Notes under the pieces: generated by a model
What the model saw: the letters and a program-made list of their open reading frames with translations, nothing else
What the model was told of the DNA's origin: nothing
Databases searched by the model: none
Source: Tetradesmus obliquus
Lineage: Eukaryota > Chlorophyta > Chlorophyceae > Sphaeropleales > Scenedesmaceae
Assembly: GCA_030272155.1 (NCBI GenBank)
Contig: CP126195.1
Location: 2,959,001-3,023,000 of the forward strand
Length of the DNA stretch: 64,000 nucleotides
Direction of reading: 5' to 3'
In this document: in pieces, positions 3,352 through 62,500 of the stretch
Layout of the letters: each line of letters opens with the position of its first letter
Numbering within the stretch: position 1 is the stretch's first letter
Program-made: the position numbers and the translations under genes

Positions 3352-3385
<34 letters not shown>

Positions 3386-6300: not shown

Positions 6301-7337
6301 GCATACATACATGCATGGTAGTTGGTGTACGGGATTGAGCAATCTGGTCAAGTTTGGGGCAGCAGTGTGTGGCTATAGCCAGGCACGTTTGTGAGGAAGC
6401 AAGCAACTGGCACTGCAGCGGCAGCTCGGTTCACGCTGCTTGCCAAGACTCAAGGCAGCCTGTTCAACTCCACGTTTTTGGAAAAGTTCAGCAGCTGCTT
6501 GACAGCACAGCCTATGGTGAATGTTGGTTCAAATAAAAACAGGTGTCCATACCCCTCACCTGCTGCTCCAGTTTCACAATCTTGACCAGCGCAGGGGAGA
6601 GCTCGCTGGACACCTGGCCTACCAGTGCCTGCTGCTGCTGCAGCGCCGCCTGTGCTGCCTGCAGCCCAGGCAGGGCAGCATCTTGGGCAGCCGCTGACCA
6701 GCCCTCCTCCTGCATTGCAACATGTACATAGTCAATGCAACGTAAATCAAACAAAGGCAATACGTTCAAAATGCAGCGTATTATTTGGCGCAGCAGCCAC
6801 CTGGCAGGGCAGCATCCTCAGCAGCCTCCGGCCAGCCCTCCTCCTGCAATGCAGCAACCTGTGCGTATGTACGTGGTGATGCTTACGTCAATCAACATAC
6901 TGTTTGGCAGCAGATGGTTTTGTTCAACACGCTGCAGCGCAGAGCAGAGGGAGCAGCAGCATGGCAGGGCTGATCTCCAGGGCAGGATACTAAGCTGTTG
7001 ACAGCTGCTGCAGCGCAGCTGTGGCGCGGCAACTATGTCACCACCCAGCATCTGCTCCCAGTCCCTTCCTTGATACACTTAGCGGCAGACCTGTGTCGCC
7101 AAGTAAGGCGCAACAGCTGCAGCAGCAGCAGCAGCAGTGCCACCAGTGAACAGCAGCTCAGCGCACCTCGCTGGAGTGGCTCCTGCTGCGGATGTCGGCC
7201 ACGTCCTTCTGCGCGCTGATTGTGCCCTGCACCGCCTGCACCAGCTTGGCAATGCCAGCCTGCACCTGGTGCTGCGTGGATGCCAGCTCCTGCAGCACCA
7301 GCAGCAGCAGCAGCACCAGCAGCAGCAGCAGTAGCAG

Positions 7338-7368
<31 letters not shown>

Positions 7369-7680
7369 CATCTTAGTTTCAAGAAGCATGTTCAGCTTGG
7401 CGCGGCGTTCATGCATACCTTGCGCAGCAGTACATGAGGCTGGGACACAAGTATCTGTGCGAGCGCCCAATCCGGCGCAATATAACCACTACAAACGGTG
7501 TCGCAACGGGCAATCAACAACATGAAGAGTGTTGCAGCTGGAGCAGTGGCCAACCAGAGATGCTCATCTTTTAAAATCGACAGCGTGTGGACTGAGCATG
7601 ACCACAAACCTCAACACACCCCTCTTCTGCGCACCTGTTCGCAGGTCTGCAGCTTCTGTTGTGGGTCCGCCTCCGCTCCC

Positions 7681-7715
<35 letters not shown>

Positions 7716-8345
7716 TGCCAGCTCAGCCTCTGCAGCCGCAAGCCGCTCAGCCAGCTGCTGCAGCCTGGCCTGGTGCTGCTGCTGCTCCAAACGGGCCTTG
7801 TCCAGCTGCCGGATCAGCCGGGCACGCTCATCTGATAGCCGGGGATCGGCGGGCGGCACCGCAACCTGCAGATGGTTGCATGGAGTGAGTATGCATATTT
7901 GTGTTTTGGTAGGCTAAAATGAAGTTGAGGGTGAGCACAAACATAATGGCATGGGTCAGTTATCAGCGCAATCTGCTGCTGCTGCTGCTGCTGCAAGAAA
8001 GTTGTCAAGGCTGCAAGCTGGCGCATGCTTTGTGGCATTCCCTGCGATGGGTCAAGGCATTTCCAGCTGGCATGCTGTCTGCCAGATTCAGCCGCAATCG
8101 CTCAGCACCCCACTCACCACCATGCCTTTACTCTAGTATCAGAAGCTCACCTGCTGCTTTGTGTGGGATCCCACTGCCACGGAGCTGCTGGTGCACACAC
8201 TCTCAGCCAGCTGCTGCTTAGCAGCCGCCAGCTCAGCCTGCAGCTGCTCATGCTCTGCCTGCAGCGCCTGCAGCTGCTGCTGCAGCAGCACCGCCTCCTG
8301 CTCAGCAGCCTCCTGCTTCTTCTTCTGAGCCTTGGCCGCGCTTGC

Positions 8346-8376
<31 letters not shown>

Positions 8377-11300
8377 TTCGGGGCTTTTGCTGCAGGGCTC
8401 TGCTTCTTCTCCTGCTCCTTGGATGCTGAGTCAGCAACTACAGTAGCAGCTGAAGCTGCCTCCGCTGCAGCAGCCGCAGCCGCCTCCAGTTCTTCAACCA
8501 TCTTCTCAGCTTCGGCCAGCTTGGCTTCTGCTGCTGTCAGCTTGGCAGACTTGCGGCTGTTGGACTTCTGTGCGGCCTCCAGCTGCTGGCGCAGCTGCTG
8601 CTTGTCAGCCTGCAGCTGCTGCTTCTCCGTCTGCAGCTGCGCGTGGGCTGTGGCAGCCGCCGCTGCAGCAGCCTCTCCCTACAGGTAGACAAACACAAGC
8701 GCAGCGGCACAGGCAAGGGAGCAATATGTGAGGGGTATGGCCGTGATCTGCTGCTTCTCCGTCTGCAGCTGTGCGTGGGCAGTGGCTGCAGCCGCTGCAG
8801 CAGACTCTCCCTGGAGATGCACAGGCACGTGCACAGTGGAAGAGGCAAGGCAGCAGTAAGTGAGTGGCATGGCCGTGAGCTGCTGCCTCTCTGTCTGCAG
8901 CTGGGCATGCGCGGTGGCTGCAGCCGCTGCAGCAACCTCGCTCTGAGCGATGAAAGGTGTCACATAACGCACAGAGGCGACGGCACAGGCAAGTCAGCAG
9001 GTAGCAGGTCAGTGGTGCAGGCAGTGTTACGTGCACTGTCTGGCGGCGCAGCTCACACTGCAGTTGCATGTGCTTGCTCTGTGCACCTTCTCACCGGGCA
9101 ACAAGCCGGCTGGAATAGGAGCCAACCACAAACTAGCTGTCCACTCTACAGTCAAACCAAGCTCATCACCACACTCCCGACACACCCTTGTACAACCCTG
9201 CCCACCCACCTGCTGTATTGCCTCATGCAGCTTGCTGATGCAAACCTTGCCCTGAGCCAGCTGCCCGCCCTAGAGTGAAACTTGGCCCATCAGTGGTGAG
9301 CCACCACCCTATCCCACACACACCCCTGCTCACCTGCATGCATTCCCACCTGCTGCATCGCCTCATGCAGCTTGCTGTTGCGAAGCTTGCCCTCAACCAG
9401 CTGCAAACCCTACAGTGAAACAAAGCCTGCCACCCCATCCTACAAACACGCCTTTTTTCTGAACATCCTGCGCTCCCACCTGCTGTATCGCCTCATGCAG
9501 CTTGCTGCTGCGCAGCTTGCCCTCAGCCAGCTGCCTCCTCGCCACCTCCATTTCACCATACAGCTGCTGCAGCCGCGCCTGCTGCGGCGCCTGTGCTGCC
9601 TTGGTCTGCTGCAGCTCTTTTGCCAGCTGCTGCTTCTCCTCTTGCAGCTTCTTCTTGGCCAGGCAGGCCTGCTGCGCCTCTGCATCGGCCTGCGGTTGTT
9701 ATAACACATGGCAACATGACAGTTGTAACACATCCGGTCGTAGCGAGGCAGAACGCCTGCTTGAGACCAGCTCGATGCAACGCAAGTGATTGCTGGGACT
9801 TGCATGCGCATGGACCTCTTGCGAATGCCTTGTGCTGGCTATGTCAGCTACGTGACACGCAGCTGACAACCGCACAGACCCTGGTCAACAGAAAAAAACA
9901 GAAGCGAAGCGCGCGCAACTCACCTGCTTGCACTGCTCCTCGGCCTCTGCTGCCCTGTCAGCCGCCGCTGCGGCCTGCTGCTGCGCTGCCGCCAGCTGGC
10001 TGTTGAGCTGCGCCAGCTGTGCATTGGCAGCCGCCAGCTCAGCGTCCATGCCCTCCTCACGGCACTTGAGCAGCGTGTGTGCCTCCAGCGCATCCTCTGC
10101 AGCTGCAGTGGCCTGCGGCAGAGAAGAAAGAGAATAATTACATCGGCAGAGAACAGCAGGCGGTGATTGCTGCACAGCACGGTTCATGGTAGAAGACGTG
10201 GAAAGCAACAGCAGCACGCGTGCTGGCAGCACATCATTGGCCCCTGCAGTGGCCTGCAGCAGAGGACAGAACACAGCAATTGTTGCACATTGAGGGTTGC
10301 AGCAGCCGCCAGCTCAGCGTCCATGCCCTCCTCACGGCACTTGAGCAGTGTGTGTGCCTCCAGCGCATCCTCGGCCGCTGCAGTGGCCTGCGGTAGCAAA
10401 TACAACACAATTGTAGACGTACCTGAGATATTTGAACACATGTCAGCACAAACTGATGGATGCGCAATACACTTGTTGGCAGAGGTTACAGGAACAGGAG
10501 CAGCGGGTGTGCCTCCAGTGCATCCTCTGCTGCTGCAGTGGTTTGTGGCGGCAGCAGCGTTGTGTGCAGCGGTGTTTCAAACGCAATGATCATTACACAC
10601 CACAGCTTATGAAGTAGTGGGTGCGGCAACTATGGGATGTCGCAGCCATTTACTTCTAACCCATCTGCTGTGCGCACCTTCTCGCAGAGGAACTGCAGCT
10701 CCAGCCACTTCTGCTCAGCACTTGCCAGGTCAGCAGCCAGCTGCTGTGCCTTGGCATCTGCTGCTGCCTGCTGCTGCCTGCTGGCCTGCAGCTCCTGCAG
10801 CAGCTGGTCCTTCTCCGTGGTCAGCTGCTGCTGCGCCTTGACTGCTTTCTTACCTGCCGACATTGCCTGCAGGCAGAGCAGAGCGTATGCCACTTTTCTG
10901 ACGACTGCAAGCAGGTGAGAAGATGGTCTGAAGCAACCAGTGGCGCAGACCGCTGGCAAGATGCGGTATGCGAAAGTTGCAGCAGTGGTCAACAGCATCA
11001 CAGATCACAGAAAATGGAAGCACTGGGGCGTTGCATGCGTGTGTGGCGGCTTCACGTGCGCAAGCGACGCTGCTTGCACGCATGCATGCTGGCAGCACCC
11101 ACCTGCTGATACAGGTCTTCCAGCCGAACAGCTTTCTGCTGTGCTTCTGCTGTGCACTGCTGGGAGCTGCGCAGCTCATCTGTCAGCTGCTCTGCCCTGC
11201 TGCGTGCTGCTGCTGCCGCCAGTTGCGCCTCCTGCAGCTGCTGCTGCAGGGCCTCAACATCCTGCAGGTTACTGCTGCTGTTGCAGCTGGCCCTGTCAGT

Positions 11301-12748: not shown

Positions 12749-15649
12749 ATGGCCCTGCTCGCAAAGTCTGGTGTTCGCGCAGCTGGCGTTTCCCGCAGGT
12801 CCTCCGTGGCCTGCAGGGCCCAGGTGTCTCGCCCCACATGGTGTGTACGCGTGCTGAGCAGCCCCGGCAGCCGAACCAGGTCACACCCACCGGGCATGTT
12901 GACAGATGCTGACCCTAGCATTCGCTGATTAGGTACCCCGGAGCAACCCCGCCCCAGCACCTGGATGGCTCCATGCTGGGCGACTACGGTGCGTGACGAT
13001 CGAGCAGCGAAATGGCGCGCAGCAGGCCTGGCTGGGCATGCAGCAGCAGCAGAGGCAATCCCCAGTGCATCCAGCAATGATCCTGGCTGGCTGCACCCCT
13101 CTGATCAGCTGCAACGCTCTAAATCCTCGCAGGCTTCGACCCCCTGCGCCTGGGCACCAACCCCGAGAGCCTGAAGTGGTACAGGGAGGGCGAGCTGTAC
13201 AACGGCCGCTGGGCCATGGCTGCAGTTGCTGGCATCCTGTTCACCGACCTGGTGGGCCTGCCCAAGTTCTGGCTGGCCGGCGCTGAGGTGAGGCGCTTGC
13301 AAATGTAATATGTGTTATTCTGTTGTTCAGCACAGCATTGGGCCAGTGTACAAGGAGCCATGCGCCTTGTGTTGAGGCCGGCAGCAGCGATCTACAGCAG
13401 CAGGAGCTGTGCCAGGTGGTTGCATGTGGAAGGTTCCGCTGCAGCAGCAGAGCAGAGACCAGTATTCGCAGCAGCATGGCAGCAGCCACAGCTTGGTAGT
13501 GCTGGGGCAGTGCTGAAGGGCTTAGCAGCTGCCGGCTTATCACTGGCGAGGAGCCTAATGGCAGACAGCCAGCAGCTGCTTGCAGGAGATGACAGGAGTC
13601 TACCGATCGCCAGCAGACGTGACTGCAGCAGCAGCAGCTGCTTTGGCGTTGGCTAGCGCTCTATCTGCACAGCGCGTTTAGATCATTTTGGCAGCATTTG
13701 GAACTGCACAGCTGTGATGCTGATGAAGACGGTCAGCGCAGATCCTTTGGGGCAGGTCATCGCTACAGCTGTTACACAGTACACAAGCACGCAGATGGCC
13801 GTGAAGCTTCAGCAAATCCAGCGTATTGGAGCCGGGTGTGCGCAGCAGTGCCTGTCAGCTTGATCTTGAATCTTCGCAGCAGTTGCTACAGCCGCAGCTG
13901 ACATCACAGCAGCACTCTGCTCCGCCTCAGCATGGCATCCTGCTTATACCCATCATGCGGCAACACAGCGTTTGGAGGGGCCGCAGTGCGCCCCTGGCCA
14001 TCATGATCTACACCAGCAGCAGCTCTGCACAACTCAAGGCGTAGGATGGAGCAAGCAGCTGATCCGAGCCTGCTGCTGCTGCTGCTGCTGCTGCTGTTTC
14101 TTCTTCCGTTGCAACAGCAATACCCCATTGACAACAAGGTGCTGGTGGCCATTGAGGTGGTGGTCATGGCCATCCTGGAGGGCAAGCGCTACGAGGGCTA
14201 CAAGAAGACCGGCGAGGTGCGGGGACGGCCCGCTGCTGCTATGTGTAATTGGGCAGCAGTCGGGTAGCAGTTGCAGCTGCACCTTGAGGCAGACCGGGAT
14301 TGCTGTGTGTCACATGGCAGGATAGCAGCTGGGTGGAATGGAGGTAGCTGAGCTTGATACATCTCTGGCAGCAGCAGCAAACACGGCAGCAGTGAACTGC
14401 TAGGGTTGGCTGAAGGGGTGGGAAGGGTCGGCAGTGGTGGTTGGGTTCGGGCAGCCAGTTTGTAGTGATTACTTGGTAAACTCATCTGTGCAGCAGCCAC
14501 GGTCACAGCAAGAGGCAGGTTGAAAGAGTACAAGGCATTTGCCTTGAGGCTTTGTGTGTGGTGCTGTCACTCAATGCTCTCTACTTGTAGTGATGATAAC
14601 AGAGCAGCTATGCCGTGCTGATGTTCCGACGGCAGGGGCGCAGCTGCACAGGTGCTACTGTAGCACGCCTGGTTGTACAATTCTGCCGTGCAGCTGTGTA
14701 TGGTTTCGGCAGCTGCGCTGGAGTGCCAGCATATGCCTTTGGTACTGCTGAAAGTCCTTGCTCAAGTTGCCAGTCAGTGCAGCTCTATCAAGTACTTTCA
14801 GCAGTGTCAATGCCGCAGCGAACACAGCAGCCGCAGCAATCGCTGTGGTGCTCTCGCCACCCCTTGCGCCTTGCCATTTCATCATTTGTTCCGAAAGTCC
14901 ACGAGCGGGGGTTTATGATGCTTTCTGTCATGTATCTGCCCCGCAGTGCGGCTTCCTGGGCTTCTTCTTCGACTCCATGGGCATGTGAGAGCTCTCGGCT
15001 CTGCTTTCACCTTGATCCTGCGTCCAACCCCACCTGATCTATCTGCTGTTGTCTGTTGTTTTGCACCTTGCAGTGCGGCTTCCTGGGCTCCTTCCCCTTT
15101 GACCCCATGGGCATGCGCAGCGAGAAGACCAAGCTGAACGAGCTCAAGAACGGCCGCCTGGCCATGCTGGCCTTCATCGGCTTCTGCAGCCAGGCCGCAG
15201 TGCGCGGGCTGGGCCCCATCGACTGCCTCAAGCTGCACCTGGAGGACCCATGGAACAACAACAGTGAGTGGCGCGTGATTGCTGCTGCTTTGTTTCTGTC
15301 CCTGTTGCTGTCCTGTTCATGTTGTGCCCAGCTGCACCTGTAGGTTCTCTGGAACATCAGCACTGAGCCGCGCAGACATGGTCGCGCACCATGTCAGCTG
15401 CAGCACAGCTGTGCAGGCGGCCGCCGAACTGCTGCTGACTCCTGCCCCATCTGCCTGCCTGCTTGCTCCTGCGCCTTTGTCACCTTGTGCCTTGCAGTCT
15501 TCACCAGCTCTGTCGGCCCTGAGAGCGTGGTGACTGTGGCGCTGCTGTGCGTGTGGCCCATCATCATTGAGGCCACCAAGTCCCTGAACAAGGGCAAGCC
15601 AGAGAGCGTGCCTGTGTTCCCATGGGCCGAGCCATGGAACCAGCAGTAA
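12749..15649 (+). CDS. Photosystem I light-harvesting chlorophyll a/b-binding protein (LHCA type)
   Basis: Exons 12749-12840, 12933-12988, 13133-13287, 14118-14216, 15074-15263 and 15498-15649 join in frame to a protein of 247 residues, normal for an Lhca. The N-terminus ([20 protein letters not shown]) is a chloroplast transit peptide. The mature start [16 protein letters not shown] and the [11 protein letters not shown] stretch are typical of LHCI. The three membrane helices are visible: helix B with [14 protein letters not shown], helix C around [14 protein letters not shown], and helix A with [12 protein letters not shown]. The chlorophyll ligands Glu/Arg of helices A and B are present. 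Position E+3 in helix B is Asn rather than the common His. The protein acts in the thylakoid membrane as PSI antenna. The exact LHCA number cannot be set without alignment. Intron 3 is 830 bp. Intron 4 carries a truncated copy of the next exon. Confidence 0.93.
14944..14990 (+). repeat. Truncated upstream copy of LHCA exon 5
   Basis: A GCAG acceptor followed by [13 protein letters not shown] and a GTGAG donor-like end repeats the start of the true exon at 15074 ([14 protein letters not shown]). The intron between the two holds an ordinary acceptor. Confidence 0.85.
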
Positions 15650-16847: not shown

Positions 16848-19800
16848 ATGCATCAATCTCTGAAACAACGGGCTTGCGCAGGGCAGTGCAGCAGTAGCAG
16901 CAGCAGGAGCAGCGTGCAACAACAGCAGCAGCATGTCAGGGCCACGCATCAGCCAGCACTGCCACAGAGGCGTCGCGTGTCATGCGCAGCAGCAACCAAG
17001 GTAGCTGCATTTCTCATACGGCGCATAGTTCTGCATGTCTCTACACCTGTACATACAACATGCAGCAGCGCGTGCAACCAGCCAACCACAGCACGATTGT
17101 CATGATGTCAGGCAGGAGCCAGAGCACGTGCAGTCAGCAGGTGCACTACGCACCTCGTTTGGCCTGCAGTATATAGCATCATGCCTTGCACTTGACACAA
17201 CATTGGCTATCAAGCAGTTGCTTTGCAGCTCTGCATATCGGTTTGGCTGCAATTACGTATGCCATATGATGCTGCGCCCTGCTGCTGACTTGCTGCGCTG
17301 CCTGCAGACGTCTGTGTCCCAGATGTCAGCAAGCATGAAAGAGGTGCGGCAGATGACAGAAGCAATATGTGCCGTAACTGCAGCAGCAGCAGCAGCAGCA
17401 GCAGACTGTTCAGAAGTAGCCTGTCCTCCATGCTTTTTGTATCGCTCTATATGGGCATGAGACGGCAGTGTGATGCCGCACCATGTTCAGGTTGCATCAC
17501 ATGGGCGGCTGCGGTTACTATGCAGAGCTGCCAGTAGCAGCAGCTAATGTCTAGTGGGTCTCGCCTGTTACAATGGCAGCACACCAAGCTTCCTCGCAGC
17601 TGCCCTGCTCTAGCTATTCTGAAAACAGCTGCACCTTCAGGTTGTTGACACTGGTTTGCACCTTGTTGTTTCCTGCAAGCTGCACTTTGACACACTGTGG
17701 CCACACTCTGTCCCTGAGTCTGACATCAGGTTGAATTGATCTTTGTGCCCTGTTTGCACCCTGCCCTGGCCTTATGTTATTGTCATTGTTATTGTTGTCC
17801 TTTGCAGATGCGCAGCAGCATGGAGGCCTCAGAGAATGAGCAGCTCAAGGTGCTCATGGCAGGGTTCAGGGGCCAGAACCTCGATGAGTCAGACTTTGCA
17901 AACGCAAACGTGCGCATGCGGCTGGTGACAGACTTGCAGGACGAGGGCCTGAATGAGGCACTGCCACTGGCGTATGACCCAGACGCCATCAACAGGTGCG
18001 GATGGAGCATTGATACTTTTGGGGAGTGGTAACAGAGGACTGCATGTTTTGTCTGGCGTTTGTATGTGGCAGCAGTGGTTTTGGGGGGGCAGCAGCAGCA
18101 GCAGCAACGGCAGCAGTACAACATGCAGCGGCTGACAGCACCGTGCGCGCTGGACAGGGATACGACAGACAGGCTGGCGCTGTGGGTTGTGAGATAAGAG
18201 CAACGTAAACGGCAATGGCAGCACATCGGCTAGATCTGCATCAGTGCGCAGCTGCAGCTGCAGCTGGGCGGCAGATAATATCTATGCACAACAGCAGCAG
18301 TTATTGCCGGCCGAATTGTTGCAGCAGGCCTGTGAGCCTGTGGCACCGCTGCTACTTAACTGATGCTTCCTGCAATCAAGACGCGCTTAATCAGCTGCCT
18401 TCTGTGTATGTGCTGTGCTGCTTCAGGTACTGGGACACGCGCCCCACCGCCGTCATCACACGCATCACGCAGCTGATGGGCATTGCTGGCAACTTCATCA
18501 GTGGCCTGGTCATGGACTTTGCGCAGGGTGCGTGGCAGCAGCCTGATTGATACGTTAGACATGTTCCGCCTGCCTGAAAAGTATCACTTGGCTTATGTGT
18601 GAGCATGCGACAAAGTGCAGTTGTTACTCCAGCAGCTGTTGCTGTGTTCAAGGGTATCATCATGGTATGAGCTTCATATGTATTGTATGGGTTGTGTCCG
18701 CTGCAGGCAAGCTGAAGGACAATGAGGTAAAGCGCGCCATCCAGCTGAGGGACATCGTGACCAGCCTGGGCCCCGCATACATCAAGCTGGGCCAGGTGAG
18801 GGCACGGCAGCAGCGCGGGCAGCTTGTGTTGTCACACGTTTTCAGTGTCAGATGGGATGGGCAGTGCAAGTTGGACAGGAAGAGACAATATGTGTCACAT
18901 TGTAATGCACTCTGTTGTGTTGCATGCTGCGAGCGCAATCTGAAGTTGGCGATGCGGCTCCATTGCGCGCAGGCTTTAGCAAAGATCTGCGCTAACCATA
19001 GACAATCTTAGTTACTGTTGTGGTGTTCATCATCTTGCGCCCTGCTGCTGCTGCTGCAGGCGCTGTCCATCCGGCCTGACATCCTGTCCCCCGCAGCCAT
19101 GAACGAGCTGCAGAAGCTGTGCGACAAGGTGCCCAGCTTCGACAGCGCGGTCGCCATGCAGGTGCGCTGACAGGCTGCGTTCGCTGGCTGTGGATGCCAG
19201 TTTTGTTTGCTCAAACCTGTGTTTCAACAGACAATGTTGATGTGTGCAAACTTGGCATCCTGCAAGTGAAACTAGAACAGGCAGAGGCTAGTAAGATCCA
19301 GTGTGAACATATGGCTCCTGTTTCTGGCCCCGTCAGCAGGCAGCGCACACTTCAGCTGCTTGTGGCGCCAGCCGCAGATGCTGAGCTATGTCACACCTGC
19401 ATAATTTTCTAACCTGTTGATGCTGCAGGTCATCAATGACGAGCTGGGTGCTCCCTGGTACGAGATCTACATGGACCTCACCCGTGAGCCCACACTCACT
19501 TTGCTGTGTGTATGTTGTCGCATATCTGTATTGTCAGGTCATCAATGACGAGCTGGGTGCTCCCTGGTATGAGATCTACGCGGACCTCACCCCGGAGCCC
19601 ATCGCAGCCGCCAGCCTGGGCCAGGTGTACCGGGGGCGGCTCAAGACGGGCGAGGAGGTGGCAGTGAAAGTGCAGCGCCCGGGCGTGCTGGTGAGTGGGG
19701 TGGCGCAGCAGCGCTGAGCGTGCAGCTTTCCTTGCTGTTTGGTTTGCTTGTGTTGTTACTGCTAATGCTAATGATTGGAATTGCTGACAGAAATGTACTG

Positions 19801-22631
19801 CAGCAACCCGTGCAATCATGTTGGGGACAGTGCCTTGGCTGGCGCTGTGCGCCAGCTTTCGTGAGTCTAGCAACTTGTGGCGGCTGCTGAGGCGTGGTGC
19901 TGCCCTGGTGCCCTGCAGGAGACTGTGACGGTGGACCTGTACATCATCAGGAAGATCGGGCTCTTCCTGAGGCAGTTCCCACAGGTGGGCGTGAACTTCA
20001 GTGTGAAATCTACATGTAATTGTATGAGCTGCCGCCGCGGCAGCAGCTGCCGCGGACGCAGCAGCAGCAGCTGCAGCAGGGGCATCGGCTGTTGCAGAAA
20101 CATGTCGAGAGCTAGTGACACAGCCTGCCGTTCATCATCAGGTGCATGGCACGCACTGGCGGCACCCACAGCCGCACCAGCTGCAGCCCAGGCTGAATGT
20201 GGCTGCCCTGCTGACAGCAGTCGTTCTATTACCAAGCATGAGCGCAGTGCAATGGACCCAACCTTTGTGCACCATGATAGATGTGTCACATGCTTGTGTC
20301 TGTGCTGCTGTCGTGTCGCGTCATCTTGCAGCTCACCACGGATGTTGTGGCGTTGCTTGATGAGTGGGCTGCGCGTTTCTTTGACGAGCTGGACTATGTG
20401 AAGGAGGGCCAGAACGCGACACTGTTCGCGCAGCAGATGGCCGCCGACCTGCCGCAGGTGGGCAGGGACTGCTCTTGATTGCAGCTCATGTATTCAAAAG
20501 GCTGTTCTGGTGGGCTAAGCTGTCATTGGCGATGCTGTGATGGGGTAAGCAGCCTCTTGCATATAAAAAACGATTAGTTGTTGTGGAGCTGCATTCACCA
20601 TGCTGCCCGCCGGGCCACACAATATGGTGCGGAACGACTGCTGTATGTTGTAGGTTTCACACCGGGGTCAAGATCGGGTGGTGCTGCCGTGCTGTTGTGT
20701 GTGCTGTAGGTGCTGGTGCCGTCCACGTACAGCGCGCTGACCAGTACATTACAGACAATGCTGCTCTCTCAGCTGCTGCCGCGCAATGCAGCTCCCTTGT
20801 ACTAACGCGTATTCGCTGTTCCGTGCTGCTGCTGTGTATGCTGCAGGTGGTGGTGCCGTCCACGATCAGCGAGCTGACCAGCCGCCGCGTGCTGCTGAGC
20901 CACCAAACACCCGCTGCTTCTCAGGCTGTGCTGTGTCACGTGTTGTGTGTGCTGCAGGTGGTGGTGTCGTCCACGTACAGGGAGCTGACCAGCCGCCACT
21001 GAACAGCTTATTGGTTTTGAGCTACAGCCCAGTGCAGCGCCCTGTTGACATGCTTGTGCTGCTGCGCCTGTGCCATGGTTGCAGGTGGTGGTGCCGTCCA
21101 CGTACAGCGAGCTGACCAGCCGCCGCGTGCTGACTGTGTCGTGGCTGGACGGTGAGAAGCTGAGCCAGAGCAAGGCCGATGACGTGGGCGACCTGGTCAA
21201 CATCGGGGTCATCTGCTACCTCAAGCAGCTGCTGGACACAGGCTTCTTCCAGTGAGTATCGTAGCCAATTATGTAGTGGGGGCGGCAGCTGAATGCTGCT
21301 ACTTGAAGCAGCTGCTAGAGATAGGCTTTTTTCCAGTGAGTGGTGTACATCTTTGTGTTGAGGAGGCAGCTGCAGCTGAATGCGGCTAATGCATAGGAAA
21401 TTTTGTCAGCTGCGTCAAGCGCCAGACCCTGTCGCTGTAGCTGGCTGCTGCCTGCTACCGCTTCTGCATGGCGCCTGGGTATTGCGCCCTCTCCTTATGT
21501 GCCGTTTTCAAGCGGCGGCTGTTGTGCAATCCAGCATAAGCCAGCCTCTTCTTTGCACACACAACGCACCTCGCGACAACTGCAGTTGCCGTGTCTGCTT
21601 GCACCCTGCACTGCGCTGACCACCTTGTACTGCCGTCATCAATGCCAAACCCTTTCTTCCTGCAGCGCTGACCCGCACCCCGGCAACCTCATCCGCACGC
21701 CTGATGGCCGGCTGGCCATCCTCGACTTTGGGCTCATGACGCAGGTGGGACGGCAGCATTTTTGGATCACTCGACTCTGTCAGTGGCGGCTGTGCCACGC
21801 ACGGCTGCTTGCATAGTGGCCTGAGCTTGCATGGAGCTGCCGGCAGCCTCCATGCGCAGCATTTTAATGCCCTGTCAGCACACCTGGTTCTGCATCCTGT
21901 GCCACTGGGGATCTATAACCGTCCTTGACTTGCGTTTGTTCTGTCAATCGGGCTCGTGACGCAGGTTGACGACGAGATCAAGTTTGGCATGATCGAGGCC
22001 ATCAGCCACCTCATCCACAGGGACTATGAGGCCATTGTGCAGGTGGGCTAAGCTGCAAGTACATCAGAGCGCACATGTTCGTTGTTGCACTTCACTCTTT
22101 CAGGGAGGGGCGGAGACCTCGCACCATGGCTGTTAGCTGCGCTCCTGGCTAGCGTTCAGTTCCCTGCTTGGCATCTGGGATCTGGCTGTCGCGCGCGTTG
22201 GGTGCTGAATGCCTGGCACAGGTCACTGCTGCATCGATGCATCTGCCAGCAATGCAGCGACAGGGGAGTTAGTCTGTTGTGATCCTGCTGATGTTTGTGC
22301 TGCTGCTGCTGCTGCTGGTGCTTCCTGCTCGCAGGACTTTGTGACACTGCAGTTCATCCCGCCGGGCACCGACCTGCAGCCCATCCTGCCTGTGCTGGCC
22401 AAGGTCTTTGACCAGGTGGGGCGACAGCTGGTCAAACTTCGTGCTCAACCTGCTGGTCAAACCATATGTGCAACCAGCTGCTAAGAGCGGCAACCGTGGT
22501 AGCTGTTGACATTTGTCGTGTGTGCCTTATTCGTTAGTGCTTCTCAGGTGCTGTCTGCATTCAAGTAAGCGGCCAGCAGAGCACGGGCATCTCTATGCCA
22601 GCACCACGCCATTTTCTGACGTGTTTCACGC

Positions 22632-22698
<67 letters not shown>

Positions 22699-24839
22699 CA
22701 GGCGCTGGAGGGTGGTGGCGCCAAGAACATCAACTTCCAGGAGCTGGCCGCTGACCTGGCGCAGATCACCTTCGACTACCCCTTCAGGTGCGGGCTGCTG
22801 CTGCCGCCGTTACTTTACGCCCCACGCGTCCACTCAACCGCGCACAGAATCCTGCCCTGCGTTCCGCTGACAATCCGCGCCATCAGCGTGCTGGCGGCAC
22901 TGATCCTCACACTGAAGTCCCCTGACCTGCTGCTGCAGCAGCCACGCAAGATCCTGCCCTACTTTGCGCTCATTACCCAGCAACTGTCTTGCTGCTGCTG
23001 CTGCTGCTGCGCTGCAGGATCCCGCCCTACTTTGCGCTGATCATCCGCGCCATTGGTGTGCTGGAGGGCATCGCGCTGGTGGGCGACCCCGAGTTTGCAC
23101 TGGTGGATGAAGCCTACCCATACATCGCCAAGCGCCTGCTCACAGACGATTCACCACGCCTGCAGGTGTGTGTGCTGGCTGTGTTGCTTTGCATCCTGCA
23201 TGCCTGCAATTGGTAGTTGGCGGGGCCTACCCCAAGCGCCTGCTCACCAATGAATCGCCGCGCCTGCAGGTGCGTGCAGTGTCTCGTGGGCTTGCTACAC
23301 ACTGCTGCTCCCTGCTGCTCTGCTTGCTGCAAGCCCCTGCTTCTCGTGTTGGTGGCAAGAAGCTATCATGCAGCCTACTAAGCGCATGCTGCGCTGCCGC
23401 TGCCGCTGCTGCTGCTGCTGCTGCTGCAGGCTGCGCTGCGCTACATGGTGTACGGCAAGCAGGGCATCTTTGACGCGGACAGGCTCATCGACCTGCTCAA
23501 CGCCTTTGAGAGCTTTGCAGTTGCCTCACAATCCTCTCGAGGAGACATGGACCAAGAGGTGGCAGCAGCAGCAGCAGCAGCAGCACGCAACGGCAGCGGC
23601 AGCAGCAGCAGCAGCAGGAACGGTCTGTTTGGTGGCGGCATCGGCATCTTTGGGCCGCAGCTGATACCGCAGCTGCCCCAGCTGCCGCTGCCGCTGCCGG
23701 TGCCCGGTGCTGCGTTTGGTGACGGCACTGTGGCTGTGGCTGGTGCTCCTGGCATTGGGCTGTTTGGGCTGCCTGCGAACCGCTTTGACCTGCGGCAGCA
23801 GAGCACGCTGGATAGCCAAGGCAGGCTGCGGGAGGCCCTCAGGCGAGCCCACAAGGCCAGCTGCGTTGCATGCAGCTGCTTCTGTTCTGTTCCTGTTCTC
23901 CTGTTGTCTTGCTGGCATATACTGTGTCCGTGGGTGCTCCAGGTATGCTGTAGGCTGCCACTTTCTTTGTCTTTTGCAAAGTCATGTGGCGCGCCAGCTC
24001 AGGCGCATGCCTGCTTCTCTGCTGCATTTGTCCTTGACCCTGCTGCTGCTGCTGCCGCCGCAGGTTCATCTTCTCGCCCGAGGGCAGCTTCTTCCGCACC
24101 TTTTTGCTAGATGAGGTGGTCAAGTCCATTGATGCGCTGTCAAGGGAGCAGCTGGTGCTGCTGGTGCAGCGGCTGGGGCTAGCAGGCGTGCGCGTGCCCG
24201 TACTACTGCCAGGTGGGTGTGGTGGCATAGCGCTGTTGAGACATCTGAGACTGCATGCCTGCATTGCTCAGCTGCACTTCCGCAGCTGGGCAGCAGCTGG
24301 GTTTGGCTGGCTGGCGTGCGCATGCCTGTACTACTGCCAGGTGTGTGTGCGTGGTGTGGTGGCGAGCTGGTGTGAGACTTTGTGGCTGCATAGGTTGGCT
24401 GTATTTCCTAACAAAGTGCAGCTGTCACGCCCTGCATCGACCTGCTGTGTTGCACCATGTGGCAGTTGTCTTAGTGCAGCCTTGGCGTGCATTCACCATC
24501 TGCGATTCACGCACGCGTCGCCATGTCTCAACACTGCTTCTGCTGCTGCCACCTTGCCCACCGCTTTTTTCTAATGGCTACTCAACAGGTGCTCGGCAAG
24601 CCTCCGTGCCGCTGTCCCCACACATCTCAGAGGAGGATCGCCAAGTCGTCGACAACGTGGTCAAGATTGTCAACTTCCTCACAAAGGGCTCACTGTCAGG
24701 TGCTGGCCCTGCTGACGCCTCGCTACTGCTGGAGCTGCTGCCAGTGCTGCCCACGGTGGCACGCGAGGTGCTGCCGCAGGTCACCAGCCAGCTGATCAGC
24801 AGGATCTCTGCGCGTGCTGTGCGTGAGCTGTACACGTAG
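16848..24839 (+). CDS. ABC1K3: Plastoglobule atypical kinase ABC1K3
   Basis: Eighteen exons: 16848-17000, 17308-17343, 17808-17995, 18427-18527, 18707-18795, 19060-19161, 19538-19690, 19919-19984, 20332-20457, 21085-21251, 21666-21744, 21965-22042, 22335-22415, 22702-22787, 23018-23165, 23430-23842, 24064-24212, 24589-24839. They give about 821 residues. The first exon has a Ser/Arg-rich plastid transit peptide. ABC1 hallmarks are present: KLGQ in AYIKLGQALSIRPD, the Ala-rich loop PIAAASLGQVYRG, Lys in VAVKVQRP, HADPHPGN and the metal-binding DFG. The segments ILPVLAKVFDQALEGGGAKN and RIPPYFALIIRAIG match plant ABC1K3 as I remember it. That family works with ABC1K1 on plastoglobules in plastoquinone and tocopherol metabolism. 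An Ala/Ser/Gly insert follows residue 'SRGDMDQ' in exon 16. The intron after exon 16 is GC-AG. Exons 1 and 2 are least certain. Many introns carry partial exon copies. Confidence 0.92.
19429..19483 (+). repeat. Partial upstream copy of ABC1K3 exon 7
   Basis: The acceptor and VINDELGAPWYEIY recur 109 bp upstream of the true exon at 19538. A change from CCCGGAGC to CCGTGAGC in the copy creates a donor-like GTGAGC. Inclusion would add 55 nt and shift the frame. Confidence 0.9.
20710..21000 (+). repeat. Three partial upstream copies of ABC1K3 exon 10
   Basis: Acceptor plus a version of VVVPSTYSELTSRR begins near 20710, 20847 and 20959, ahead of the complete exon at 21085. Spacing is about 110-137 bp. 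The third copy ends in an in-frame stop right after TSRH. Confidence 0.9.
21297..21345 (+). repeat. Downstream copy of the ABC1K3 exon 10 end with its donor
   Basis: The bases encoding YLKQLLDTGFF plus the GTGAGT donor at 21252 are repeated about 80 bp further on as LKQLLEIGFF-like sequence followed by GTGAGTGG. Confidence 0.85.
22845..22985 (+). repeat. Two partial upstream copies of ABC1K3 exon 15
   Basis: Sequences resembling the exon start, which encodes IPPYFALIIRAIGVL, occur near 22848-22895 (ILPCVPLTIRAISVL) and 22947-22980 (ILPYFALIT) before the true exon at 23018. Confidence 0.85.
23205..23272 (+). repeat. Downstream copy of the ABC1K3 exon 15 end with its donor
   Basis: A diverged YPKRLLTNESPRLQ followed by GTGCGT repeats the exon end YIAKRLLTDDSPRLQ at 23165, about 106 bp downstream. 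Confidence 0.85.
24290..24350 (+). repeat. Downstream copy of the ABC1K3 exon 17 end with its donor
   Basis: GGCGTGCGCATGCCTGTACT and the following CTGCCAG|GTGTGT repeat the exon end at 24185-24218 with few changes. Confidence 0.85.
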
Positions 24840-24854
24840 AGCAGCTTTCCCTGC

Positions 24855-24960
24855 AGGGTCATGTTGATGGCTGACAGCATGGCAGTGGCGCGGGAGGTGC
24901 TGCCGTACGCGCCCAGCCAGCAAGATCTATGTGCGTGCTGTGTGTGAGCTGTACACGTAA
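24855..24960 (+). repeat. Diverged copy of the ABC1K3 terminal coding end in the 3' UTR
   Basis: About 20 bases after the TAG stop, sequence matching the end of the last exon (AREVLPQ...RAVRELYT, stop) is repeated, including GAGCTGTACACGTAA. It is a duplicated C-terminal coding end that now lies in the 3' UTR. Confidence 0.85.
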
Positions 24961-33268: not shown

Positions 33269-33301
<33 letters not shown>

Positions 33302-34795: not shown

Positions 34796-34828
<33 letters not shown>

Positions 34829-34955
34829 CAGCAGAGAGGCCAGCAGCAGCAGCAGCGGCTGTTAGGTAAGCTGTTTGGGCTGGCTGGGCTTATTTCGGGC
34901 GTGGCTGTGCCGCTGCTGGATGAACTGGCAGCAGCACAGCAGGGAGGCCAGTAGT

Positions 34956-34989
<34 letters not shown>

Positions 34990-37766: not shown

Positions 37767-37802
<36 letters not shown>

Positions 37803-40971: not shown

Positions 40972-41015
<44 letters not shown>

Positions 41016-49100: not shown

Positions 49101-52100
49101 GCCAGCCCACCACCTCCACCTGATGCCAGCCCACCACTGCCACCCCTTGTGGACAGCCCACCACCCCCACCCGATGCCAGCCCACCACCTCCACCTGATG
49201 CCAGCCCACCACCTCCACCTCTTGTGGACAGCCCATCACCCCCACCTGATGCTAGCCCACCACCTCCACCTGATGCCAGCCCACCACCGCCACCCCTTGT
49301 GGACAGCCCACCACCCCCACCCGATGCCAGCCCACCGCCCCCACCTGATGCCAGCCTACCACCTCCACCTAATGCCAGCCCACCACCTCCACCTCATGTG
49401 GACAGCCCACCCCCCCCACCTGATGCCAGCCCACCACCGCCACCCGTTGTGGACAGCCCACCACCCCCACCCGATGCCAGCCCACCACCTCCACCTGATG
49501 CCAGCCCACCACCACCCCTTGTGGACAGCCCACCACCCCACCCGATGCCAGCCCACCACCTCCACCTGATGCCAGCCCACCACCGCCACCCCTTGTGGAC
49601 AGCCCACCACCCCCACCCGATGCCAGCCCACCACCTCCACCTGATGCCAGCCTACCACCTCCACCCCTTGTGGACAGCCCACCACCCCCACCCGATGCCA
49701 GCCCACCACCTCCACCTGATGCCAGCCCACCACCTCCACCTCTTGTGGACAGCCCACCACCCCCACCTGATGCCAGCCCACCACCTCCACCTGATGCCAG
49801 CCCACCACCTCCACCCCTTGTGGACAGCCCACCACCCCCACTTGTTGCCAGCCCACCACCGCCACCCCTTGTGGACAGCCCACCGCCGCCACCTGATGCC
49901 AGCCCACCACCCCCACCCGATGTCAGCCCGCCCCCACCTGATGCCACCCCGCCACCGCCACCCGTTGTGGACACTCCACCACCACCAGCTGACACCCCAC
50001 CACCACCGTATGTGATAGACAGCCCACCACCGCCAGCACCCGCGCCTGACAGCCCACCACCACCGCTAGACAGCCCACCACCAGCAGCAGCGCCGGATAC
50101 GCCACCACCGCCAGCAGCAGCGCCCGATACGCCACCACCGCCAGCACCAGCGCCAGACAGCCCACCACCGCCAGCACCAGCAGCAGACAGCCCACCACCA
50201 CCAGCAGCAGACAGCCCACCACCACCCGCAGTGCCCGATGCGCCACCACCACCAGCACCGCTGCCGGACAGCCCACCACCGCCAGCAGCAGACAGTCCAC
50301 CACTACCAGCTGTCCCCAATACGCCGCCGCCGCCAGCACCAGCGCCTGACAGCCCACCATTAGATAGCCCACCACCACCAGCAGTGCCGGATACACCACC
50401 ACCGCCAGCACCAGCGCCTGACAGCCCACCAACAGCAGACACCCCACCACCACCAGCAGTGCCGGATACGCCACCACCGCCAGCACCAGCGCCAGACAGC
50501 CCACCGCCACCAGCAGCAGACAGCCCACCACCACCAGCAGCAGCGCTCGATACGCCACCGCCGCCAGCACCAGCGCCAGACAGCCCACCATCAGACAGCC
50601 CACCACCACCCGCAGTGCCCGATACGCCACCACCGCCAGCACCAGCGCCTGACAGCCCACCATCAGACAGCCCACCACCACCAGCAGTGCCGGATACGCC
50701 GCCACCGCCAGCACCAGCGCCTGACAGCCCACCATCAGACAGCCCACCACCACCAGCAGTGCCCGATACGCCACCACCGCCAGCACCAGCGCCTGACAGC
50801 CCACCATCAGACAGCCCACCACCACCAGCAGTGTCGGATACGCCGCCACCGCCAGCACCAGCACCAGCGCCTGACAGCCCACCGCCACCAGCAGCAGATA
50901 GCCCACCACCACCACCACCAACACCACCACCACTGTCACCACCCCCACCAGCAAATGCTGTTCTGTTGCAACCACCGCCACCCCCACCACCCGCCGTGTC
51001 TAGCAGTGGCCCGGCTACAACACCGCCACCTGCGTCCCCACCTGCCCCTCCACCACCACCCACGCCTGCCACTCCCGCAGCAGTTGTCATTGGCGGCAAC
51101 TTATCCTTCTCAGGTGCGGCAACCAAGGCACTTCGTGTCTGTCAGAGTGCACTCAGCGTATACTGAACACCCGCATGGTGCCCAGCACCCGGCAACCAAC
51201 AGATCTGTTGCAAACGTACTCATGCTGGTGTTGCAGGCACATTCACGCCGCACATGTCGGCAACTGCATTCTGATCACTGCCCTGCATAAACTCTACCAC
51301 CGCTACATACTTCAATGCCGCGCAGGGCTGATGGTCACTTCCATGGGCCCCTCGCTTATGCATGCACAGCTGATAACCAACACACCTGCTGGCAAACTGC
51401 CCATTCTGCAGCACCCGTTACCCTGCCTGTGTGATTGCTTTGCAGGTTTGACCGTCACTTCAATGGGTCCCACGCTGATGCATGCACAGCTCACCAAGCA
51501 GCGCATTGCAGCGCTTAATGGCAGCCTGGTCTTCGGCTCCCTGGGGGGCCTGCTGGTGCCTGTGGTGGGCAACTTCAGCCTACAGGTGCGGCAAATTTGG
51601 CCTAGTGAGGTGTTTGTTATTGTGAGATACCTGCGGCTTTTCATCACCTTCATGTAATGGCATGGTACCTGTGGTGGGCAACTTCAGCCTGCAGGTGCGG
51701 CAACTCTGGCGTCTTTTGTTTGTCGGCTGTGTTTTCATGTGCGATAGCCGGTAACCATTGATCACGCATGTTCAGTGATATGGTGCCTGTGGTGGGCAAC
51801 TTCGGCCTGCAGGTGCGGCAAAGCAGCTTTGGTTGTTTAAACTGTGCGGAATTGCAGCGGTAGCCGCACACAAATGCCTGCAGGTGCGGCAGCTGTGTGT
51901 CAAGTTGCAGCAGGCAAGGGTGTCAACGTGGCGGTGTGCGTGGCTGTCTGTGCTGCCTAGCGCTTGGAGTCACAGCTCGCAGGATTCATTGTAGGCATGC
52001 ATGTGAGTGGCTGTAGGCCAAACACATGCAAGTGCACGGCGCTGCTTCTGTGTGAGCTGGCGGGCTGTGCTGCAGCGCTTTTGCCGCACGCATGGGCTGT

Positions 52101-54008: not shown

Positions 54009-54049
<41 letters not shown>

Positions 54050-54623: not shown

Positions 54624-54664
<41 letters not shown>

Positions 54665-57417: not shown

Positions 57418-59463
57418 ATGAAAGCTGTGTTGAAGGTGCTGGTTGGCATATTGGCTGCCACGTCAGCAGTGCTGCTGTACTTCATCGTAAGTGCTGTTAA
57501 GCAGGCATCTGTTCAACAGCATGCCTGGGAGCAAGCAGTGTGCAAATCCCTGATGCCGACAAGAAAACAGCAGCGCTGAGACCACCATGCATCTATGCAT
57601 ACATGCGAAGACATCACGCATGCACAATGATGCTGTCAGCAGCCCAGCCGTTGAACGGCAGAGGCAGCAGCAATTCCACAAGACTGCACCGCCGCACCAA
57701 CAGCAGTCGCTGCAACCACCGCTGCCGCAACCATCTTCCGCCTCTGCGCTGCCTGCAAATCCACACTAATCATATCCACACTAATCAAATTCACACTAAT
57801 CAGATCCACACTGATCAAATCCACACTAATCAGATCCACACTGATCAAGTCCACACCCTACATCTCCCACCCCGCCTCCCGCCCTGCGCAGATCCACGAG
57901 TTCAACCCTTTCCTGCGCCGCTGCAACCCAGACGTCTGCAGCAGCTACGCGCTGTCAGCGTTCCGTGTTCACAGCAGCTCCCACTCAGACGGTAGCCCTT
58001 GCCAGTATGGCAGCCTGCCTGGGGTGCTCAGCTTCAATGTGATGAAGCCTGCGGGGTCGCGCTGGCAGACTGCGCTGCCTAAGTGCCAGCTGGATAATCT
58101 GCTGATGCCCAGTTCGCAAATGGGTGATGTGAAAGTGCTGGTGAGTGCAGGTGTTTTTTTCTGCAGTTCTGTGTGCCTGTTTCATGCTGTGCCTGTTTCA
58201 TGCACAGGCAGGCATAGAGCAGCGCAACCTGTTGATGCCCAGCTCTGAAACAGGGGATGTGAAGGTGCTGGTGAGTGCGGCATGGCTCAATCTGAGCTTC
58301 CTGCGCAAGATGCAGCTGCTGCTGCGCTTACATTGCTGCTGACATTACTAACCACTGCTGCTGCTGCTGCTGCTGCCGCCGCTGCTACTGCTGCTCTGCG
58401 CACAGCTACTTGGCGACTCGGTCGACGCACGCCTCACGCGCGAATGGTGCAGCGAGCTGGAACAGCCGTTGCGCTTCACTCCGCCAGCAAGCGTGAAAGG
58501 CAGTGTGGCAAGCTTTGCAGCTGCAGCCAAAGCAGCAGCAACCGGCGGCAGCAGCAGCAGCAATGCAAGCCTTGCTGATGCGGATGAGTGCTGCAAGGAT
58601 CGGGATGTGATGTACTACTGCAGACCTGAAAGGCGCAAAGCCGCTGCTGGTGCTGCTGCTGGTGCTGTGAATGGCGGTGGCAGCATCAGCCTCGGCATGT
58701 ATCACATTCTTGGGGTTCACTTGGATGGTCCCTTCCACACAGGTGGGTGATGGGGCTTCGCTTGGCACGGCATCAGCAGCAGCAGCAGGCCAGCAGCCAG
58801 CCGCACACGTGTGCTGCATGACCAGCTGCACGTTCGTGGTGCATTTGCATGTCAAGCAGCACAAACCTGGGCTTAGCAATAATCGGCAGTGGCACCCCAG
58901 CATGCACGTAGCGCAGGTCACAGCCAGCTGTTGGGCTGCCAATTCTAGCCTATCATTGCTCATGTGTGTACGTATGGCAAGGGCGCCACGTGAAAAGAAC
59001 ATGTGCGACCCCTTGCCTCTCAGTAGTGTTGTGCAACATTTGCGTGGACTTTGATAGCGGTGACGCGTCGCGCTGCACAAACAGCGCTGCAATCTGTGTC
59101 TTAATGGACCCATTGCATGACGGCCGGCCTGCTGACACTAGACCCACATAACGCAAAACCCACACAACATCACTCTGCTGTGCAGGGGCCAAGGGCAACT
59201 TCCTCACGCGCATTCCCCTGGCGCTGAAGACCTTTGAGGCGGTGCAAGGCGCCCCGCCACACCTGGTGCTGCTGCACAGCAACTTCTGGTGAGCTGGCCG
59301 GTGGCTGGATGTGTGCACCGGGTCTGGGAAGCACTGCCAGTTGCACAGCAGCAGCAGCAGCAGCAGCGCAGCTCTGACCTGGTGCTGCTGCGCAGCAACG
59401 TCTGGTGAGCTGGCTGGCTGCTGTTTGTTTGCGCTGGGTCTGAGAAGCATTGCCACTTGCACT

Positions 59464-59501
<38 letters not shown>

Positions 59502-62500
59502 GCGGCTCTGACCTTGTGCTGCTGCACCGCAACTTCGGGTGAGCTGGCTGCATGGTGGCTGTTTGTCTGCGCTGGGTCTGGGAAGCGCTGCCTCTCGCAC
59601 TGCAACTGCTGGTGAGCTGACTTTGTGCTGCTGCACAGTAACTGCTGGTGAGCTGGCTGCATGGTGGCTGCTGCTTTGTGCTCTTGCTGCGACGCGGCGG
59701 GTGCCTGTTAGCACATACACAACAGCAACCCCACCATCACCTCTGCGATGTGTCACACTCCGTGCTGTGCATGCTGTTGCCTGTGCTACATGCTGCCAGG
59801 GACCAGAGCCGCATGTGACAGCAGCAGGCGCAGCACTGAACTTGCTTGGTCACTGTGCGACTGCAGCACACACCTGCGCTGCAAGTTAAGGCACGTACAG
59901 AAGCAATGACACGATTACCGCTGCGTTCTGTTCCGGGCTGTCCGTGCCGTTGCCAAACATGCTGCTGCCGTTGCTGCATGCTGCCAGGGACCAGAGCCGC
60001 ATGTGGGAGCAGCAGCAGGCCGGCTACGGCCACCTCAACAAGCTGCTGCCTGATGTGGTCTTCTCCTGGAGCAGCAACTTCAGCCTCATGCTGTCCACAA
60101 CAGCAGAGCTGCTGCCTGAGGTGCGTGTGTCTCCTGCACAGGCAGGGGTGTGAGGTGCTACAAGCAGGGCTGTGATGCCGGCACACATAACAGCAGCAGC
60201 AGCAGCCGGCAGCAACTTCAGCCTCATGCTGTCTACAACAGCGGAGCTGCTGCCTGAGGTGTGTGTGGCTACACGGGCAGGGGTGGGGGTTACGATGCTA
60301 AGCGCAGAGCTGTTTGCCGGCACACATAACAGCACCTTCAGCCTCATGCTGTCCACCACAGCAGAGCTGCTGCCAGAGGTGTGTGTGTGTGTGTGTGGCT
60401 CCTTCATGCACAGGCAGGGGTGTGAGGTGCTGGAAGCAGGGCTTTGATGCCGGCGCACTTAGCAGCAGCAGTGAGGCATCATGTGCAAGCTCCTGATGCC
60501 GTCAAACGCAGCAGCAGCAGCAGCGGCGGCAGCGGCGGCTGCATAATGCAGACTGGAGTAGCCTGCTGCGGCAGCAGCGCGGCTGCATGTGCAGATGGTG
60601 ACTGTCGTTGTCATAAGGATGATGTGGATGCATGGGAGCAGGATAGTTGTACTGGTGGCAATGCTGGCAAACGTTGTGTGGATGGCTGGTCACATCCTGG
60701 CTGTTTGCTGCTGCTGCTGCTGCTGCTGCCGCTGCTCTGCAGGCCACGCTGATGGCCACGCGCACTGCAGCCTTCCCAGCTTTCTCAGCCAACTGGCTGG
60801 GCCGCTGGTGAGCGGACTTGGGTTTAAGGTCAGGGTGGAGGTTGACAGCCTAGCCTGCTGCGCGTGGTTATGGCAGCCTCCCCGGCCTCCTCAGCCAACT
60901 GGCTGGGCCGCTGGTGAGGGGGCAGGGCGGGGTGGGGAGGGTGTCACAGTCTAGCTGCTGCCAGCTGTCTTAGCCGGGCTGGCTGGGCCACTGGTGCGGG
61001 GGGAGTCACAGCCTAGCTGCTGCGTGTGATGGCAGCCTTCTCAGCCAACTGGCTGGGACGCTGGTCAGGGGGCGGGGCAGGCAGAGATTCACCGAACCTA
61101 GCTGCTATTTGTGTGTGTTTGATGAACTGTCACTGATGATGGTATGCGCGGGGAGTGCCTGAGGCGTTGTGCTTATCGCAGCACGCACTCATCCACATGT
61201 GCGCAGTCTTTGTTCTCATCTGTGTTTTCGGTAGACGGCGTTGTGCCGCAGGCTTTACACCCAAGACACAAGCTGCATCATGACTGACCAAGATCTGCCA
61301 TGTTTCATGCAAGCACCATCGCCACTGATGGTCAGGCCAGATTTGGAGAAGCCGTTGACGTATTTGTGTTGCGCCCTGCAGGCCCTACATCCAGCAGCTC
61401 AAGCTCGGTTGTCAGCCCTTTTTTCAGCAGCACGCTTTGATCACAACACAAGCTGCATCCTGACTGGCTTTGTGTTGTTTGACATAAAGGGCTGTTGACC
61501 CTTTATTCAACTACACATGATCACGACAAACTGCATCCTGACCGGCTTTTTTTGTTGTGCTGCAGGCCCTACATCCAACAGCTGAACATGGCAGCCAGCC
61601 AGCTGGCACAGCTGTTGGTGCTGCATCCAGCAGCAGTAAGATGTACCAAAAGCCGCATCATGACTGCCTTTTGCATGCTGTTGCGCTGTGCCGCAGGCCC
61701 TACATCCAGCAGCTGAACATGGCGGCCAGTGAGGTGGCGCGGCTGCATGGCGTGGTTGTGGTGGATGTGGCTGGCATGGTGTTCGGGCTGGAGCCGCGCC
61801 AGTACCTGCAGGACCAGCACCACCCCAACAAGGTGTGCACGCAGTCCTGTATCTTGAATTGTTATCTCGGTTTCTGTTGTGTCTGTGTTCAGGCTGGAGC
61901 CAAGACAGTACCTGCGGGACCAGCACCACCCCAACAAGGTCGGCGCGTAGTTCTGTTTTGCAGTCATTGTTTTGTGAATTGATGCGGCTGGCATGGTGTT
62001 CGGGGTGGAGGCGCGCCAGTACCTGCAGGACCAGCACCACCCCAGTCGGGTCAGCAAGCTGTTCGGTTATGTGGTTGTATGGGATTGGATTGCGTTGGAT
62101 TAGGTTAAATTGCATTGGCTTGGGCTAGTTTGGATGTGTGATGTGTTTATGGTTGGCCTGGCGCGCCAGTGCCTGCAGGACCAGCGCCACCCCAACAAGG
62201 TCGGCCAGCAGTTGTTGCATCCGTGACTATGCACATCCTGCATGCCAATCAACCCCTGCATGCCGAGCAAACCCTGCATGCTGCAGCTGCTTCAGTCAGC
62301 CAGCAAATGTGGCAATGCAACGCTGAGTTTTCATGCTGGCGTCAAGCACTTTCTCGTTGTGTGTTGTACCTGACTGCAGCCGTGCTCGCTGCCGCCGTGC
62401 CGCTGCAACTGCTGCAGGTCGTGCTGCTGGAAGCTGCCAACATTGCAATGAACCTGCTGCGGCAGCACCAGCAACAGCAGCAACAAGACACGGGGCAGCA

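Follow-up and report, generated by a model that had tools for sequence, protein, structure and literature searches.

Tandem exon duplication copies whole exons whose function is retained, and introners are dispersed families. Introns can also be gained by tandem genomic duplication (TGD, the AGGT model; available part of PMC3443670), as in the case of a potato RdRp gene (available part of PMC4974935), and small tandem duplications are described as arising through fill-in and end joining at staggered breaks (available part of PMC8355091). The window that we analyzed, a 64-kb stretch of Tetradesmus obliquus DNA, contains partial copies of exons, which we call echoes, next to the exons from which they derive. 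None of the best matches listed in the open-licence literature describes exon-edge echoes with the spacing found here. The duplication itself is of a known kind that is unusually common and regular here; the spacing is narrow, 95-155 bp, and fresh full pairs are scarce.

As in TGD intron gain, a short direct duplication within a gene supplies sequence that resembles a splice site (available part of PMC3443670). Unlike TGD, the units here lie across a junction or stop codon that was already there and lengthen introns already present, with no new intron shown; where the AGGT model has a unit inside one exon and an AGGT motif, so that the new intron equals the unit, the copies in ABC1K3, LHCA and WDR83 hold an existing junction or stop codon. 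Duplications at staggered breaks are likewise direct, short and blind to gene structure, and their copies are adjacent, as some of those here are, but those in the available part of PMC8355091 are insertions of less than 100 bp in the human genome, whereas the spacing here clusters at 95-155 bp and no birth breakpoint is seen. Exon sequence lies beside its source, as it does in tandem exon duplication and in mutually exclusive exons (available part of PMC9013439); the copies here, however, are partial, in place of whole exons that keep both splice sites under coding selection, and carry non-synonymous and some frame-breaking changes. Finally, intron sequence has been gained repeatedly across many genes, as with introner-like elements, but near-identical dispersed introns were not found: both of the two spacers searched against the genome match only themselves. 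On the result for these two, we reject mobile elements as the source of the spacers.

In a self-comparison of the window, we found 66 direct pairs and 0 inverted pairs no more than 600 bp apart at E<=0.01, the orientation expected of small tandem duplication and the one implied by the original prediction. Five dinucleotide shuffles of the window gave 0 direct and 0 inverted pairs under the same limits, and self-BLAST of the whole window at E<=1e-3 gave 85 direct pairs and 1 inverted pair. The copies had also been taken for a property of the genome and not of particular genes, and this claim stood up when the genome (104.66 Mb in 17 contigs) was sampled in twenty 10-kb stretches picked by position alone. 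Direct pairs were present in 16 of the 20 samples, although two of these (L024 and L025) hold satellite-sized units only and a third (L009) holds one pair at an offset of 557; the 20 samples contain 7 inverted pairs. Sample L025 (positions 1-10000; C17:1000001-1010000) consists of a 4282-bp head-to-tail unit at ~100% identity, and positions 1-6000 of L024 (C16:1000001-) form a satellite-like array with a unit of ~277 bp at ~95% identity, beyond which lies another array of ~350 bp.

In the samples, offsets are most frequent at 100-160 bp and rise again near 240. The window and samples together (264 kb) contain 54 single-pair clusters and 40 multi-pair clusters at offsets up to 600. Forty-two of the single pairs, 13 from the window and 29 from the samples, have an offset of 60-220 bp, with a mean of 130 and a standard deviation of 21 bp, and 37 of the 42 lie within 95-155 bp. 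If the 264 kb are typical, this corresponds to one two-copy local duplication per ~6 kb (42 in 264 kb). We call a pair spaced if at least 25 bp of unaligned spacer separate the copies, and full if the tandem copies are adjacent; by this definition, 33 of the 42 are spaced and 9 are adjacent or full, and the spacers keep partial residual homology. The copied piece averages 67 bp in the 33 spaced pairs, so that the originally proposed unit of 80-140 bp matches the spacing more closely than it does the piece. An assembly artefact is unlikely, because nearly every copy differs from its source.

Copies had been predicted in nine named genes, and self-BLAST recovered them at eight of the nine places. 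The features in the window are as follows.

6661..10549, - strand: pairs 6661/6793, 8614-8945, 9131-9535 and 10027-10549, in what the original prediction called a coiled-coil gene.
14947..14985, + strand: LHCA, acceptor-side echo lying upstream of its exon (start 15074) at an offset of 127 (HSP of 87% with a 3-bp gap).
15330..15373, + strand: LHCA, weak downstream copy (77%) of the exon end 15231-15274, donor side.
19429..19487, + strand: ABC1K3, upstream echo of the exon starting at 19538, offset 109, 93%.
20710..21000, + strand: ABC1K3, three upstream echoes (from 20710, 20847 and 20958) of the exon starting at 21085.
21301..21339, + strand: ABC1K3, donor-side echo lying downstream of the exon that begins at 21085 and taken from its 3' part, offset 83.
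22845..22976, + strand: ABC1K3, two echoes upstream of their exon, which begins at ~23016, the nearer echo with a degenerate acceptor.
23225..23276, + strand: ABC1K3, donor-side echo lying downstream of the exon that ends at 23166 and taken from its 3' part.
24282..24354, + strand: ABC1K3, downstream echo of an exon's 3' part, donor side.
24885..24960, + strand: ABC1K3, the last exon's 3' part up to the stop codon, copied past the gene's stop, 77%.
33166..33213, + strand: copy of 33311-33358 from self-BLAST, offset 145; the acceptor-side reading is uncertain.
34741..35011, + strand: full tandem pair 34741/34870, period 129, upstream of the INSIG domain matches (35.8-36.0 kb).
37988..39923, - strand: WDR83 intron with 16 arrayed units, downstream echoes of an exon's 3' end (at 39924).
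40276..40547, - strand: WDR83, upstream copy of the acceptor and the exon's 5' part, offset 266.
51322..51822, + strand: pair 51322/51442 (acceptor side, by reading) and array 51554-51822, in a stretch named pherophorin-like in the original prediction.
58096..58278, + strand: pair 58096-58148 / 58226-58278, donor side by reading.
59261..62213, + strand: six echo clusters (59261-59670, 59770/59958, 60071-60471, 60767-61081, 61556/61687 and 61764-62213), in a stretch likewise named SGNH-like.

The ninth place is the presumed WDR92 position, which weak WD40 matches put at 41.8-48.2 kb; no local copy was found in 41800-48200, even at E<=0.05, while its neighbours have many. Among the gene names given earlier, LHCA, ABC1K3, INSIG and WDR83 have domain or homologue support, but coiled-coil, pherophorin, SGNH, WDR92 and DUF1499 drew no support from Pfam scans over part of the window and strands. 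For ABC1K3, the best match among those listed is Tetradesmus obliquus OEZ85_002788, at 94% for a query without one exon, and few residues differ when the two are set side by side. The window also contains a 15/30-bp minisatellite at 57756-57856, with 92% matches for the 30-bp unit.

We read exons by eye from three-frame translations in ABC1K3, LHCA, WDR83 and the SGNH-like stretch; exon edges beyond ABC1K3 and WDR83 come from reading the sequence. In all of these, upstream echoes run from the acceptor to a break within the exon, and downstream echoes run from a break within the exon to the donor. The rule of direction in the original prediction thus holds wherever the source exon was read, that is, for 10 ABC1K3 copies (6 upstream, 3 downstream and 1 past the stop codon), 2 LHCA copies and 17 WDR83 copies. 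The copies also place decoy-like splice sites in introns, as had been proposed. The ABC1K3 copy at 22944 has CAA in place of the acceptor CAG, and the copy at 24885..24960 has no splice site at its edge.

The same arrangement appears in the wider sample. At >=86% identity, all 22 spaced pairs can be read with one end at a coding edge (10 at an acceptor, 10 at a donor and 2 at a stop codon), where the classes were assigned from splice consensus and frame, those of 33166 and 59770 being the least certain, and where in most sample pairs the working exon is not told apart from its copy. In 17 of these 22 best-preserved pairs, one of them cut by a sample edge, similarity ends no more than 11 bp from the coding edge. 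Geometry forces this direction: a tandem unit whose breakpoints fall on either side of a junction, one of them within the exon, must leave the exon edge outside the exon.

A process of duplication or copying anchored at splice junctions, as the original prediction proposed, is therefore not needed, and we consider it highly unlikely. Acceptor or donor consensus does stand at the edges of most well-preserved pairs. However, 3 of the 33 spaced pairs appear to be bounded by a stop codon, including the 77% pair 24756/24885, which would make the rule one about the edges of coding segments. Of the 22 best-preserved pairs, 5, one of them uncertain, carry 22-34 bp of flanking intron. Moreover, the same edge pattern comes out of a simulation in which random unanchored tandem units of ~125 bp have a constrained source exon and a freely decaying copy. 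Among simulated spaced pairs of >=86% identity, similarity stops no more than 10 bp from the junction in 42 of 69, and in 62 of 97 with more indels. By identity, the proportions are 11/14 (>=92%), 31/55 (86-92%) and 103/248 (<86%), and with twice the indels 22/29, 40/68 and 129/275, respectively. Anchoring at splice junctions is not supported; as a whole, the observation in the original prediction is partly confirmed and its interpretation partly supported.

Our preferred reading, to which we assign a probability of roughly 0.6, is that the echoes are leftovers of unanchored direct tandem duplications in which the exon half stays recognisable longest. Such duplications, with a unit of ~100-150 bp, would arise throughout the genome. 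Where a unit straddled a coding edge (acceptor, donor or stop codon), one copy would complete a working exon and the other would fall on the non-coding side, and would hence hold the edge and the adjacent part of the exon. As the non-coding copy decayed, its exon half would be set against a source that selection keeps constant, and its intron or UTR half against a partner that drifts as well; similarity beyond the coding edge would go first because both partners drift there, and a sharp exon echo would be the end product. Presumably all spaced pairs started out as full tandem units; a breakage mechanism probably lies behind the duplications.

Several measurements point to a unit that included an intron half. 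Copy length and spacer length are anticorrelated (r=-0.57, 33 pairs), and their sum stays near 130. Flanking sequence resembles its counterpart more closely past the coding edge than past the truncated end (Wilcoxon p=0.0001 on 27 of 33 pairs, with 6 of the 33 excluded, 5 as unclassified and 1 at a sample edge), with a mean z of 0.51 on the junction side and -0.44 on the truncated side and z>2 in 2 and 0 pairs, respectively; since exons and introns differ in composition, the Wilcoxon value overstates the strength of this test. Of 52 spaced pairs, 16 show similarity of spacer and flank at p<0.05, where 2.6 are expected, in a comparison that left out L024 and L025 and took in array members, in which a neighbouring echo can cause similarity. 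Against this reading, a gapped split test of window spacers, with arrays taken in and L024 and L025 left out, gave no more than 9 rows of 31 with z>2. In two full two-copy pairs with a known junction, exon halves match at 35/41 and 131/144 and intron halves at 34/48 and 92/125; these are 2 of 9 rows, since the other 7 exceed one period and count the next echo as intron, and the first of the two pairs overlaps the next copy by ~10 bp.

The balance of spaced and full pairs is harder to accommodate. Spaced and full pairs number 8 and 0 at >=92% identity, 14 and 1 at 86-92%, and 11 and 8 below 86%; well-preserved full units exist in multi-copy arrays (for example, L022 and L023), which lie outside the single-pair count. 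A simulation with 0.12 indels per substitution misfits these counts at any mix of ages (G=59.5), and adding long indels leaves a misfit (G=24.9). An indel-rich simulation fits (G=4.0, with sparse age bins propped by pseudocounts), but it produces 0.169 gap openings per mismatch in spaced pairs where we observe 0.071 (17/241), and 0.218 in full pairs where we observe 0.157 (49/312). Tandem decay without extra assumptions is thus rejected: it fits the edges, but the spaced:full counts need more indels than are observed.

These counts, together with the intron halves of arrays, keep two rivals alive. In the first, a template switch or fill-in repair inserts a nearby 40-100 bp piece ~125 bp away across an unrelated spacer, so that most echoes were never full tandem units. 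This would account for the 22 spaced pairs among the 23 single pairs at >=86% identity, for the two spacers that match only themselves, and for several pairs at 93-98% copy identity that lack spacer homology, among them L018:591 (98%, p=0.16) and L012:4838 (96%, p=0.50). It would also suit three arrays (61764, 60767 and ABC1K3) in which echoes are 78-90% alike in their exon halves and 55-69% in their intron halves, against a random level of 0.61 +/- 0.08; in the array at 59261, exon and intron halves are equally alike. We nevertheless consider it rather unlikely, since randomly inserted pieces should hold a variable amount of intron, while most well-preserved pairs stop at the coding edge, and since spacing anticorrelates with copy length and residual homology lies on the junction side. 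In addition, 25 of 55 spacers match elsewhere in the 264 kb (L024 and L025 left out), many of them at neighbouring repeats or simple CAG/CTG sequence. A genome-wide process that deposits an exon piece ending at the coding edge ~125 bp off in an intron or UTR, with a spacer unrelated from birth, is kept open by the near absence of well-preserved two-copy full pairs and by the unrelated spacers in arrays, and seems to us quite improbable.

In the second rival, tandem duplication is followed by continued exchange (gene conversion or unequal recombination) that goes on renewing the exon half but not the intron half. In its favour, the echoes of the 61764 and 60071 arrays are star-like, with source-echo differences about half of the echo-echo differences, and the same ratio is found for 2 of 3 ABC1K3 echoes. 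A toy conversion model, however, reaches only ~1:1 spaced:full pairs at >=86%, where 22:1 is observed. Furthermore, the ABC1K3 echo at 23225 keeps a glutamate codon, as in the relatives P0001 and P0002, where the source exon has aspartate and two other relatives differ; it has therefore not been overwritten since that change. We regard continued exchange as very doubtful.

The WDR83 array bears on both exchange and decay. Its spacers are of two types, A (128-132 bp, 9 units) and B (88-118 bp, 7 units), which mostly alternate, suggesting an amplified two-unit block; an expansion of this form would fit exchange within an exon-derived repeat. The likeness of A and B spacers is not significant (87 of 500 shuffles reach the score), which counts against our preferred reading. 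In favour of that reading, units of the same type have diverged to a similar degree in their exon-derived and intron-derived parts when gaps are left out, with identities of 0.901 and 0.894 for A-A and 0.860 and 0.863 for B-B; with gaps counted, they are 0.901 and 0.861 for A-A and 0.828 and 0.665 for B-B.

The copies examined decay without coding constraint, consistent with leftovers of tandem duplication. In the 7 of 11 source-copy alignments that are in the right frame (the 4 in the wrong frame were excluded), copies and sources are separated by 10 synonymous and 23 non-synonymous changes, and some copies have gaps that break the frame. Coding constraint on the echoes is contradicted by these counts and by the ungapped WDR83 rates. 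A self-trained coding model, with L011, L024 and L025 excluded, gave a weak signal and was set aside. In the covered parts of 5 ABC1K3 and 3 WDR83 homologues, read by eye, each exon segment occurs once and the echo peptides are absent from 8 of 8 proteins, among which P0005 and P0006 end early and P0005, P0006 and P0123 bear transcript-assembly names. The echoes are thus left out of those proteins.

If the 264 kb are typical, many of these duplications leave echoes in introns that resemble splice sites. Such echoes offer raw material from which decoy sites, cassette exons or longer introns may arise, and they can mislead gene prediction. Selection that acts on exons alone can impose what looks like a sharp rule on undirected duplications. 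Judging from its sequence, one WDR83 echo type could form a cassette of 51 nt, in frame and with a good acceptor. Elsewhere in the window, at 21945-21960, the acceptor before an ABC1K3 exon appears to resemble a short copy of the 3' end of the preceding exon.
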